The translations under genes were made by a program, and so were the position numbers. From NCBI RefSeq assembly GCF_001189955.1, contig NZ_LFLT01000002.1, positions 1 through 64,000 of the forward strand: a stretch of 64,000 nucleotides of DNA, read 5' to 3'. Source of the stretch: Herbaspirillum chlorophenolicum. Lineage in GTDB: Bacteria > Pseudomonadota > Gammaproteobacteria > Burkholderiales > Burkholderiaceae_D. The notes under the pieces were generated by a model. It worked only from the letters and a program-made list of their open reading frames with translations, had not been told where the DNA came from and did no database searches. Positions within the stretch are counted from its first letter, which is position 1, and each line of letters starts with the position of its first letter. Of the stretch, positions 39,147 to 43,763 are shown one piece after another.

Positions 39147-39159
39147 CTATTTTTAGTAG
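39147..39159. promoter_or_regulatory. Repressor operator, PR cluster, site 2
   Basis: CTATTTTTAGTAG, one mismatch in the half-sites, directly abuts the PR -35 box. Confidence 0.65.
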
Positions 39160-40914: not shown

Positions 40915-41312
40915 AGCGCACCAAGCCCCGCAAGCCGCGCACCATCCGCCAGCCGATGATGGCTACCACCCGCGACAACCTCGCGCTCGAGCTGCGCCTG
41001 GGCGTCGAGGCCTTGGTCGGCGCGCCGTCGGCCGAGACCTATAACCAGTTGGTGCTGATGACGGCCACCTTCGACAACGCCGGCGCCCAGTCGGAATCCC
41101 TGTCCGCCGCGCAGGCGGTGCTGACCGCGATCTGCGAGCGTTACGACGCCGGCCAGCCGGTGACCGTGGCCGCCGACGAGGCGGAAGCGCTGCGCGCCGC
41201 GGTGGATGGCCTGGACCAGGCGCTGGCCAAGGTGCCGCACAACGTGTTCCGGGCTGCGCAGGTGATTACTCGGCAGAATTTTGCGGCCGCAAGGGCAGGG
41301 GCGCCGGCATGA
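40911..41312 (+). CDS. Conserved phage protein of unknown function
   Basis: 133 residues, very basic N-terminus (KRTKPRKPRTIRQ), then an all-alpha body rich in Ala with NQLVLMTATFDNAG and TAICERYDAG. This family follows CII in several Burkholderiales prophages as far as I can recognise; no function is known. Both ends overlap neighbours by four bases. Confidence 0.65.
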   Translation: MKRTKPRKPRTIRQPMMATTRDNLALELRLGVEALVGAPSAETYNQLVLMTATFDNAGAQSESLSAAQAVLTAICERYDAGQPVTVAADEAEALRAAVDGLDQALAKVPHNVFRAAQVITRQNFAAARAGAPA

Positions 41313-42166
41313 GCCAAGTCACGCGCCCGGTCCTGCGCTACCACGGCGGTAAGTTTCGCCTGGCGCCGTGGGTCATCCGGCATTTCCCGCCTCATCGCTG
41401 CTACGTGGAGCCTTTCGGTGGCGCCGCGGGCGTCCTGATCCAGAAGGAGAGGGCATACGCCGAGGTCTACAACGACCTGGACGGCGATATCGTGAACCTG
41501 TTCCGTGTCCTGCGCGATCCCGGGCAATGCGCACGCCTCACACAAATGTTGCTGCTGACGCCTTACGCGCGCCAGGAATTCGAAGAGGCCTACGAGCCGA
41601 CGGATGACCCGATCGAGCGCGCCCGCCGCACGATGGTGCGCGCCGAGATGGGATTCGGCTCGGCCGGCGCGACGAAAGGCCACACCGGCTTCCGCATCGA
41701 CACCCGCCGCAAATACGGTACCGCCCAGGACCTGTGGGCGCGGCTGCCGGACTCTCTCGCTCGAGTTTGCGATCGCCTGCAGGGCGTGATGATCGAGAAC
41801 CGCCCGGCGGTCGCCGTCATTGAGCAGCACGACGCGCCCGACACCCTTTTCTACGTCGACCCGCCCTACATGATGGAGACGCGCTACGTGGGAGCGAAGC
41901 ACGGTCGCTATTACGCCCATGAAATGGACGACGCTGGCCACGCCCAGCAGCTGGGCGTGGTGAATGCTGCCAGCGGCATGGTGGTGCTGTCCGGCTACGA
42001 CAACGACCTCTACCGCGATGCTTTGACCGGCTGGCAAATGACCAGCACCGAGGCCCGTATTTCAGCAGCCAGGGGCACGGGGCTGCGCACCGAATGCCTT
42101 TGGCTCAATCCGTCCAGCTTCGCCCAGCTCGAGCGAGGCGGCATTTTTGGACTGGGAGCAGCATGA
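41309..42166 (+). CDS. Phage DNA adenine methylase (Dam/MboIA-type)
   Basis: 285 residues. SAM-binding motif I is FPPHRCYVEPFGGAAGV near the N-terminus; catalytic motif IV is VDPPY near residue 184. The order fits the D12-class N6-adenine methylases (Dam, M.DpnM). RYHGGKFRLAPW at the start is typical. It probably protects phage DNA from host restriction or tunes replication and transcription; the target sequence is not readable here. Coupled to both neighbours. Confidence 0.88.
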   Translation: MSQVTRPVLRYHGGKFRLAPWVIRHFPPHRCYVEPFGGAAGVLIQKERAYAEVYNDLDGDIVNLFRVLRDPGQCARLTQMLLLTPYARQEFEEAYEPTDDPIERARRTMVRAEMGFGSAGATKGHTGFRIDTRRKYGTAQDLWARLPDSLARVCDRLQGVMIENRPAVAVIEQHDAPDTLFYVDPPYMMETRYVGAKHGRYYAHEMDDAGHAQQLGVVNAASGMVVLSGYDNDLYRDALTGWQMTSTEARISAARGTGLRTECLWLNPSSFAQLERGGIFGLGAA

Positions 42167-43323
42167 CCGACCTTCCGCAACCCCTCACGCCGGCCGACTG
42201 CGACCTCGCGGGCTACCGTTTCATGCCCCTGGACGTAGTGCGGCTGAAAGGCTCCGAACTGGCCTCCAGCTACACTCCAGACGAGTGCTGGGCCGCCATG
42301 CTGCTGTGGTGCGCGTCCTGGCAGCACGTTCCCGCCGGTGCCATCCCCGACAACGACAAATGGATTGCCGACCAGGCCGGTTACTCGGCGCGCGGCAAGA
42401 TCGATCGCGCCTGGAAGACCGTGCGCGATGGCGCGCTGCATGGCTGGATCAAGTGCAGCGACGGCTTGCTGTACCACCCGGTAGTGGCCGAGAAGGCGCT
42501 GGAGGGCTGGATCGGCAAGCTGCTGAGTCGCCTGGCCGGCGGCATCGGCAATGCCAAGCGCTGGGGCGCCGAGTTCGACGCCGAAGCCATTCACGCCCAG
42601 ATTATCGACGCCGCGGCACGCCTGAAGTCCATCGCCCCCCAATCGGAATGGCTGACCAAGAAGCAGGTCGTCGCAATCCTGTCGGGATCGCCCCCCGATG
42701 AAAAACAGGTCGCCCCCCGACAGAAAAAAGCATCGCCCCCCGATGATGAAAACATCGCCCCCCGACAGCTAGATTTATCGCCCCCCGATTCGGGGTGCGA
42801 TCGCAATAGAGAGGGAGAGGGAGATAGAGAGGGAGAATTAAAAACAAATAAGGCAGCAGCTACTTCAACCGTAGTAGGGGCCGGCGAGGCCGAACGCGTT
42901 GCCGCCCCGGTGCAAGACCCGGAAAAGCCCATCAACCGCGGTGTGGCCGTGGCCATTCTGCTGCGCAGGCTGGGCGTGCGGCCCATGACGCCCCAGCATC
43001 CGCTGGCGCTGGGGTGGGGCGGGAACCCGAAATGCACCGACGAGCTGCTTCAGCAGGGCATCGACATCGCGCGCGAGCGCAAGCCGCTGCCCGAGTCCAT
43101 CCATCCGAACTACCTCGCCCCGATCATTGCCGAGCTGCTGAACCCGCCACCGCCGCGACACGACAGCAGCTGGCGCGCCAGCGAGCCGGCCACCGATGCC
43201 AAGGCGAGGGAGCTGGGAATCACTGCGCCGCTCGGCTGGAGCTACTCGCAGCTGCGCGACCTCATCCAATCGGAAATCGACCGCCGCCGCAAGCAGCCAC
43301 CCGCGAAAGGAGCCGCAGCATGA
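42163..43323 (+). CDS. Phage replication protein (O-like) containing the replication origin
   Basis: 386 residues. The N-terminal part (about 1-130; YTPDECWAAMLLWCASWQHVPAGAIPDND) resembles the DUF1376/YdaU-type domain of phage replication initiators. Residues about 155-230 are a low-complexity linker with repeated PPD and APRQ units, encoded by the DNA iterons. The C-terminal part may bind a helicase or loader. This N-domain, iteron linker, C-domain order mirrors lambda O. The start at 42163 overlaps the methylase stop by ATGA. Confidence 0.72.
   Translation: MTDLPQPLTPADCDLAGYRFMPLDVVRLKGSELASSYTPDECWAAMLLWCASWQHVPAGAIPDNDKWIADQAGYSARGKIDRAWKTVRDGALHGWIKCSDGLLYHPVVAEKALEGWIGKLLSRLAGGIGNAKRWGAEFDAEAIHAQIIDAAARLKSIAPQSEWLTKKQVVAILSGSPPDEKQVAPRQKKASPPDDENIAPRQLDLSPPDSGCDRNREGEGDREGELKTNKAAATSTVVGAGEAERVAAPVQDPEKPINRGVAVAILLRRLGVRPMTPQHPLALGWGGNPKCTDELLQQGIDIARERKPLPESIHPNYLAPIIAELLNPPPPRHDSSWRASEPATDAKARELGITAPLGWSYSQLRDLIQSEIDRRRKQPPAKGAAA
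42632..42856. other. Candidate phage replication origin
   Basis: Inside the replication gene, one partial and five perfect iterons are followed by a purine tract with two perfect 13-mers (42806-42818 and 42824-42836) and an AT-rich stretch (about 42835-42852). Iterons beside purine-rich and AT-rich DNA within the initiator gene is the lambda ori plan. Confidence 0.7.
42688..42788 (+). repeat. Five replication iterons (TCGCCCCCCGA)
   Basis: Identical 11-mers start at 42688, 42710, 42733, 42755 and 42778, spaced 22, 23, 22 and 23 bp, two helical turns apart. A sixth copy with one change starts at 42632. The bases between copies alternate between GATGA-like and GACAG-like followed by A-runs. 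Confidence 0.85.
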
Positions 43324-43763
43324 AGGACACCACCGTAGACAAGACCGCCTGCGCAGCCTTTGGCTGCCCCTGTGCCGCTACCGCCTCCAACGGCGGATCG
43401 AACTGGTTTTGCACCTACCACTTGGGCACCGAAGCCAGCAGTTGGCAGCGCATCACCCAGGAATTGCGCCGGCTCGAATGGCTGATCCTGATCTGCCGCG
43501 GCATCCGCGTCTGCTACGGCACCGAGCGCTGGGAAAAGGCATTCAAGCAGATCCAGCACGACATCCGCGCCCACCAGCGCAGCGATCTGCTGTTCGTGAA
43601 GGAAACCGATGTCAACGCCCAGCAGTGGCTGCGCCGCCTGGAGGGCGTCATCGACAACGCAGCGCGCGGCGTGCAGCAGCCGCAGTTGCCGGTAATGCCG
43701 CAGCGCCAGGCTGCTCACGATCCCGTGCAGCGCGTGCAATTCGATTTGCCGCAACACGCATGA
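43320..43763 (+). CDS. Small cysteine-containing phage protein
   Basis: 147 residues. An N-terminal CAAFGCPCAATASNGGSNWFC segment with a following His resembles a zinc-binding knuckle. The rest is helical (ITQELRRLEWLILICRGIRVCYG). It follows the replication gene with an ATGA overlap, where lambda carries the helicase loader P, but no similarity to P is visible. It may be an accessory replication protein; function unknown. The 101-bp gap after it holds a small hairpin near 43834-43847 (CCTCATTTTGAGG). Confidence 0.6.
   Translation: MKDTTVDKTACAAFGCPCAATASNGGSNWFCTYHLGTEASSWQRITQELRRLEWLILICRGIRVCYGTERWEKAFKQIQHDIRAHQRSDLLFVKETDVNAQQWLRRLEGVIDNAARGVQQPQLPVMPQRQAAHDPVQRVQFDLPQHA

Follow-up and report, generated by a model that had tools for sequence, protein, structure and literature searches.

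The locus described here raises the question of whether a gene for a phage replication protein can carry, within its own coding sequence, the site at which replication starts. It lies in a window of 64,000 nucleotides, the whole stretch of DNA that was analysed, which comprises positions 1 to 64,000 of contig NZ_LFLT01000002.1 of Herbaspirillum chlorophenolicum. A sequence-only reading had proposed an iteron origin embedded in the gene, and the proposal now gains comparative support from selection at the level of the DNA, the helical phasing of the repeats, the order of the elements, and iterons that change together with one segment of the protein. From these comparisons of sequences, we consider that positions 42632-42851 are very probably the replication origin of a lambda-like prophage, housed inside the linker of its own initiator gene. 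The features of the locus are collected in Table 1, and related loci are designated by L and a number.

Table 1. Coordinates of the initiator gene, its neighbour, and the elements of the putative origin
Feature	Positions	Strand	Basis or remark
Initiator gene, 386 aa, DUF1376 / phrog_22470 'replication protein', with putative origin	42163..43323	+	Pfam and PHROG matches
N-domain, residues 1-115	42163..42507	+	best conserved part in alignments; winged-helix-like in model; weak structural similarity to N-domains of initiators
Middle segment, residues 116-173, GNAKRWG type 'A', putative reader of the iterons	42508..42681	+	follows iteron class; natural swap in L014; DNA-first scan
Iteron 1, degenerate, TCGCCCCCCAA	42632..42642	+	1 mismatch to TCGCCCCCCGA; 56 bp (~5 x 11.2) upstream of iteron 2
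Iteron 2, exact TCGCCCCCCGA	42688..42698	+	frame SPPD
Iteron 3, exact TCGCCCCCCGA	42710..42720	+	frame APRQ
Iteron 4, exact TCGCCCCCCGA	42733..42743	+	frame SPPD
Iteron 5, exact TCGCCCCCCGA	42755..42765	+	frame APRQ
Iteron 6, exact TCGCCCCCCGA	42778..42788	+	frame SPPD
Inverted iteron-like copy	42790..42800	-	1 mismatch; absent from the sequence-only reading
GATCGCAA element	42799..42806	+	directly before the tract in 9/11 class-A genes including the window's; absent from the sequence-only reading
Purine hexamer tract, GGGAGA units	42806..42836	+	contains both 13-mers; corresponds to the (GGGACA)n of relatives
AT-rich stretch, proposed melting site	42837..42851	+	part of the gene's least stable 20 bp
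C-terminal module, residues 256-386, proposed helicase/primase recruitment	42928..43320	+	separate fold in model; residues 259-386 66% identical in L014
147-aa Cys-rich gene, possible loading partner	43320..43763	+	travels with the initiator's C-terminal module

The initiator gene and its repeats

The window protein is a member of the Pfam family PF07120 (DUF1376), with a score of 34.3 bits against a cut-off of 30.1 (3.1e-8), and it matches phrog_22470 over residues 3-126 (4.4e-40). DUF1376 is described in Pfam as a family of unknown function, and nowhere in the literature searched does it appear together with 'origin of replication'. An NCBIfam search of the protein gave nothing useful, comparison with solved structures by sequence and by Foldseek against the PDB gave no significant match, from which nothing follows, and a structure search of BFVD returned mainly other DUF1376 proteins, at low E. 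An AlphaFold model built with 39 sequences has a mean pLDDT of 83; it is mostly confident over residues 1 to about 180 and 256-378 and drops below 50 over residues 194-252, so that most of the iteron array, together with the tract, encodes a stretch without predicted structure.

The order of genes around the initiator is lambda-like, running from repressor-like, Cro-like, and CII genes through an adenine methyltransferase, the initiator, and the 147-aa gene to a gp49-like gene, RusA, and the terminase subunits. The methyltransferase gene is of the D12 type (41309-42166) and overlaps the start of the initiator by four bases; a DNA methyltransferase gene is found in the matching position in L014, a circular Herbaspirillum phage. 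GATC occurs at 42686 and 42799, inside the putative origin region. Of the 12 genes that were scanned, at 38.7-49.3 kb, none could be recognised as coding for a helicase or a loader. The 147-aa protein is Cys-rich (CAAFGCPC...WFCTYH) and is without a clear family match. A relative of it follows 11 of the 12 examined genes whose C-terminal module is at least 41% identical, L064 being the one without it, and relatives are also located downstream of L095, L103, and L116, with partial ones in L035 and L089. The protein is a possible candidate, on this co-occurrence of genes, for a helicase-loading partner of the initiator.

The five identical iterons of the sequence-only reading, said to be spaced by 22 or 23 bp, are found as exact copies at the places given (successive spacings of 22, 23, 22, and 23), and its sixth, degenerate copy is likewise present. 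Five exact occurrences of TCGCCCCCCGA in the window compare with 0.07 expected, a number reached by 0 of 100 shuffles. With up to two mismatches allowed, the whole window holds 22 occurrences against 40 expected, which is no enrichment, and the signal is therefore that of a tight, exact array. The tandem TCGCCCCCCGA pair pattern has no second occurrence in the 5.3 Mb assembly. Across the host's family, 294 genomes were searched and two have the pattern; each of the two has the initiator gene as well, the second being the genome of L018. The two perfect 13-mers (ATAGAGAGGGAGA) are exact at 42806-42818 and 42824-42836, but as an element in their own right they give way, once relatives are considered, to a form of the hexamer tract. 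The AT-rich stretch reported after them is in place; the least stable 20 bp within 42101-43400 begin at 42832 and belong to the lowest 0.11% of the window, across which a stretch at 39148 is even less stable. Iterons, 13-mers, and AT-rich stretch are all contained in the ORF 42163-43323.

Neither 22 nor 23 bp is divisible by three, so that successive copies of the 11-mer are translated alternately as SPPD and APRQ, and these alternating frames argue for selection acting on the DNA. The sequence-only reading had described the linker as shaped by the repeats (PPD/APRQ units). Synonymous shuffling of the codons, with the protein kept, predicts 39 +/- 11.5 repeat pairs for the linker of the window gene, which in fact contains 141, a number reached by 0 of 60 shuffles. 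The same test was applied to 80 genes that have a clear tract and a sufficient length of linker. In 59 of them the linker is repeat-rich, in the sense that at most 3 of 60 synonymous shuffles reach the count; three control regions give 14 of 93, 10 of 93, and 13 of 92. By these counts, the repeats are constrained as DNA.

Two other readings sit poorly with the array. The first, which sees in the repeats a proline-rich motif of the protein that does nothing at the level of DNA, is scarcely credible: they do encode a linker that is modelled with low confidence and is probably disordered, but the alternating frames, the spacings, and the excess over synonymous shuffles all speak against it, as do two relatives (L068 and L015) in which sites of the window's type lie on the opposite strand. 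The second, in which the C-runs form G-quadruplexes on the other strand, can draw on five G6 runs in the minus strand and is nevertheless very improbable, since the loops would be about 16 nt and relatives of the classes B and B2 described below keep the plan with sites of other sequence.

A weightier alternative accepts the repeats as binding sites of the initiator but gives them another job, such as autoregulation, partition, or packaging, with replication starting elsewhere. What can be read from the letters is an array of sites linked to a protein, rather than initiation itself, and the gene belongs to an early operon, where a regulator would fit too. We judge this quite unlikely, because the AT-rich stretch directly follows the tract in relatives, the PHROG names attached to the gene and its relatives are those of replication or primosomal proteins, a gene for a DnaB-like helicase, a loader, or a primase is found immediately downstream of the initiator in several related phages, and the plan equals that of two known origins as these are described in the portions of the sources available to us. 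An origin within the gene thus remains our preferred reading.

Iteron classes and the hexamer tract

Relatives were compared as a set of 94 non-redundant complete genes, including that of the window, which were drawn from phage and plasmid records, genomes, and viral contigs; as 64 of the 94 come from the best 80 of at least 573 viral loci, ranked by N-domain similarity, the sample leans to near kin. The gene of L002 (phage BR233a), which has a stop inside its presumed N-part, probably through a frameshift, is kept in the counts.

A hexamer-periodic tract occurs in 81 of the 94 genes, 70 of the 94 having at least two GGGASA-like units (GGGACA or GGGAGA), and no clear tract is seen in the other 13. 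It is mostly AGGGACAGGGAGAGGGACAGGGA-like, and the usual order of elements is iterons, tract, and AT-rich stretch. The AT fraction in the relatives reaches 0.74 over the 10 nt that come directly after the tract and falls to about 0.3 past 20 nt. Of the 75 genes measured, 73 are richer in AT behind the tract than the mean of the gene, and for 63 of the 75 the value belongs to the gene's top 5%. The GGGACA tract is read as GQ in most genes, as TG in L005, L030, L035, and L036, and as RD in L210, an account of frames that rests on named examples because phase counts mix the tract with class-B iterons. The Gly codons within tracts comprise 344 GGA, 32 GGG, 2 GGT, and 0 GGC, with GGC being the commonest elsewhere.

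The tract might instead be a slippage microsatellite, or a patch of homology for swapping C-terminal modules, with no role in initiation, which would be compatible with an origin at this site. This explanation deserves to be taken seriously, although we lean against it. Distant relatives carry tracts of other dipeptides (NQ, DS, HN, and TI) and the C-terminal modules do change past the tract, but GGGACA units accompany middle segments of classes A, B, B2, and C, whether they are read as GQ, TG, or RD, and the bias of the Gly codons is a further point against it.

The genes were grouped into classes by middle segment and by site. In class A the middle segment is of the GNAKRWG type, as in the window, and the sites are of the TCGCCCCCCGA type; in class B an ECARIKKHN-type segment is found with TGTCCCNNGGGACA palindromes; in classes B2 and B3 a segment of the ECDRIRKANKQR type and its kin is found with GGAATTCC-like sites; and class C, with two genes, has ACCTGT/ACAGGT sites. 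Class D is a catch-all for the 16 genes that match no other class. The table of motif against middle class is nearly diagonal, with means per linker past nt 501, in the order A/B/B2B3/C, of 3.33/0.11/0.11/0.11 for A (9 genes), 0.19/2.11/0.06/0.04 for B (47 genes), 0/0/4.12/0.06 for B2/B3 (17 genes), and 0/0/0/3 for C (1 gene). The class is assigned correctly from linker DNA in 97.3% of leave-one-out trials, against 85.3% after synonymous shuffling and 44.3% with permuted labels; since so much survives synonymous shuffling, the class signal lies in good part, though not wholly, in the amino acids. Middle and iteron class agree in 52 of the 53 genes in which both were called (L054 is the exception), a concordance that is partly circular because the motif lists used for calling derive from the same genes. 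No iteron class was called in 25 of the 78 genes with a typed middle.

Palindromes of the form TGTCCC..GGGACA (up to two mismatches, half-site gap of 0-3) number two or more in each of the 48 class-B genes, and 77 of the 107 gaps between successive sites are 22 or 23 bp, nearly all others being 33-35, 44-46, 56, or 66-68. Class A makes use of 11-, 33-, and 56-bp spacings as well. At a period of 11.25 the resultant is 0.93 for class B and 0.96 for class A, and at a period of 11.0 that of class B is 0.90 versus 0.06 after jitter, a control that ignores common descent. On these values, the sites of classes A and B keep a phase of about 11.2 bp, although a spacing common to relatives owes part to common descent. 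Tandem sites at helical spacing beyond chance, the mark of an iteron-type origin, are thus found here.

Several relatives vary the theme. Iterons of class A spaced by 11 bp occur among L041, L068, and L015, with TCGGGGGGCGATCGGGGGGCGA in L068. By eye, three class-A genes (L035, L036, and L060) have palindromic ATCCC..GGGAT-like sites in place of TCGCCCCCCGA. In an AT-rich relative (L108:3001-4017) the class-B iteron has changed to TGTCTC..GAGACA and the tract to ACAGAGACAGATACA, so that iteron and tract seem, from their letters, to drift together.

The protein segment that changes with the iterons

For binding to the iterons, the sequence-only reading had looked to the N-domain. The comparison favours the middle segment, because the iterons change with the middle and not with the N-domain. 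In pairs of class-A genes, excluding those within the window trio, the N-domains are 52% identical and the middle segments 47%; in pairs of a class-A with a class-B gene, the values are 57% and 20%. The window protein and that of L014 are 66% identical in the N-domain, 17% in the middle, and 66% in the C-terminal module, and their iterons differ, as do those of L072 (class B) and L117 (class B3), which are 80% identical in the N-domain and 22% in the middle. Iteron sequence, on this evidence, follows the middle segment (residues ~116-173) rather than the N-domain, which points to the middle segment as the iteron reader.

On a tree of N-domains that omits six distant genes, and in which 43 of 84 inner branches are open, the middle class must change 16 times if D is counted as a state and 8 times if it is not, and class A alone needs 7 changes, at least four of them forced by supported branches. 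Supported branches yield only two independent pairs for class A and two for class B (three and six when all branches are used), so that the link between middle segment and iterons carries no phylogenetic significance of its own.

Circularity in class membership is avoided by DNA-first scans, in which a viral collection of 2.9 million contigs was searched for tandem iteron patterns by DNA alone, with patterns that were nonetheless derived from the DUF1376 initiator family under study. The tandem class-A pattern was found in 41 stretches, all 41 in initiator-type linkers. In 34 of these the stretch is within an ORF bearing GN[ASK][KRT][RK]W; L158 and L165 have GNASRW; and the matches in L161, L172, L181, and L188, of which L172 is the window's own phage, are cut at the edge of the locus and show the same linker by eye. 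With blastp, 33 of the 41 show a DUF1376-like N-domain, as do L158 and L165 with tblastn. In L160:1143-2006, an actinophage-type protein without a DUF1376 match, TCGCCCCCCGA iterons are preceded by GNHTRW and followed by a TETETETD tract, the protein has replication-initiation PHROG matches, and a DnaB-like gene is located downstream. The tandem class-B pattern was found in 64 stretches, 60 of them in DUF1376-like genes. In 59 of these the ORF has a DUF1376-like N-domain, and the sixtieth, L224, is an incomplete copy of L051, a class-B gene. The strict class-B motif is present in 51 of the matches and can be made out by eye in another 7; the middle segment of L249 is a different one; the misfits of the scan are L199, L233, L256, and L260.

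The following course of events may be envisaged. Early expression would yield the initiator, whose middle segment would bind the phased iterons on one face of the helix, probably as dimers because the class-B sites are palindromes. The assembled complex would then open the AT-rich stretch beside the tract, and the C-terminal module would bring in the host helicase, perhaps with the product of 43320-43763. Placing the site within the gene would keep the initiator and its target together through phage recombination.

More speculatively, the protein may combine two readers of DNA, with an exchangeable middle segment for the variable iterons and a winged-helix N-domain that opens the AT-rich stretch via the GGGASA tract, in the manner of DnaA, which acts on both DnaA boxes and DnaA-trios. 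We hold this arrangement to be doubtful; if it is true, the hexamer tract would be a new kind of melting element. It would also make of the middle segment a natural lock-and-key cassette, even in the actinophage-type protein without a DUF1376 match, a notion that is just as tentative. More broadly, the comparison gives a large DUF1376 subfamily a putative role and a proposed binding-site code for each class, and a largely unstudied protein family becomes testable, including via ydaU and oriJ of the Rac prophage of E. coli K-12. Exchanges of the middle segment together with the iterons, as they occur in nature, suggest a way in which phages may alter their replication specificity with the rest of the protein kept, and would allow origins to be predicted from sequence in uncharacterised phages.

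Comparison with known replication systems

Within the wider family, a DUF1376 match is present in 29 of 398 genomes of the host's phylum. A repeat test applied more widely to DUF1376 genes, with a threshold of at most 5 of 100 shuffles and one masked gene dropped, was positive for the linker in 11 of 27 cases, the domain in 11 of 28, and the C-part in 5 of 16; since it fails to separate linker from domain, we do not extend the claim of an origin to every DUF1376 gene. Individual genes that stand out are L122, L125, L139, L144, L146, and L147 (0 of 100 shuffles) and the ydaU gene described below. Two PLSDB 'plasmids', NZ_CP026419 (L119) and NZ_CP034394 (L120), are genomes of temperate phages, as their integrase and terminase show, and neither whole record annotates a further Rep, which is weak support at most for an origin. 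The GC skew of two circular relatives was not decisive on the origin.

The ydaU gene of E. coli K-12 Rac (L121:10120-10977) resembles the window gene in encoding a DUF1376 protein and in having spaced repeats within the gene, and differs in the repeat itself; its sites are TGTTCAAACA-like, are spaced by 33, 33, and 12, and are followed by a GATACAGATAAAGAT stretch. Between nt 330 and 600 there are 43 repeat pairs against 10.2 expected (0 of 200 shuffles), and for the first 240 nt likewise only 4 of 200 shuffles reach the repeat count. According to the portions of the papers available, Rac carries an active origin, oriJ (PMC3945230), and plasmids based on oriJ are the subject of a paper cited in PMC11014345. 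From its repeats, oriJ may perhaps lie inside ydaU.

Iteron plasmid origins usually have a neighbouring AT-rich stretch, and those of the Rep_3 type share with the window tandem repeats of about 22 bp. In the example of pSK639, as given in the part of PMC5703833 available, an array of five 22-bp repeats is located upstream of rep, whereas the window array is inside the gene; furthermore, the window protein has no Rep_3 match.

The RepA_N plasmids, whose initiators bind DnaG primase through the C-domain, come closer. Models of the N-domain weakly match PDB entries titled Rep-DNA complex or initiator, which we take to be RepA_N proteins, with Z of 4.1-4.8 over 85-86 residues for four entries and, in a second comparison, 4.4-4.5 for two entries, values so low that they could reflect a merely common fold arrangement. 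By sequence, none of 39 members matches RepA_N (PF06970) at E up to 5, and none was found in the host's own genome by a search whose control was uninformative. In RepA_N proteins of the pSK41 type, the N-domain binds sites in the middle of rep, the linker encoded by the origin is dispensable, and there is a separate C-domain, while in pPR9 the N-domain and origin have been exchanged and the C-domain kept, in the account available from PMC5703833. Sites that are central in the gene and encode the linker are found equally in the window. Here, however, the iterons go with the segment after the N-domain and not with the N-domain, and the element is a phage rather than a plasmid.

The lambda-O plan put forward by the sequence-only reading stands as regards iterons and an AT-rich stretch inside the initiator gene, both of which are found in the window, and falls as regards the protein, which by Pfam is DUF1376 and not lambda O, the initiator that binds its iterons and recruits the helicase loader. 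No match to Phage_rep_O was obtained for the window protein (Pfam, E up to 1) or for 39 aligned members (E up to 5). As described in the portion of PMC7466680 available, lambda ori likewise has its iterons and AT-rich stretch in the middle of an initiator gene, gene O, in an early operon, and iteron number varies among lambda ori and its Stx-phage relatives. Other Stx-phage replication units are covered in PMC8044961, where the words repeat and iteron are absent from the main text. The C-parts of L037, L005, and ydaU match 'replication initiation O-like' PHROGs, whereas the window protein itself matches no O-like PHROG, has a DUF1376 N-domain, other iterons, and an extra hexamer tract, and has no recognised P-like loader beside its gene. 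The nearest known plans to that of the window are those of lambda O and of the RepA_N plasmids such as pSK41.
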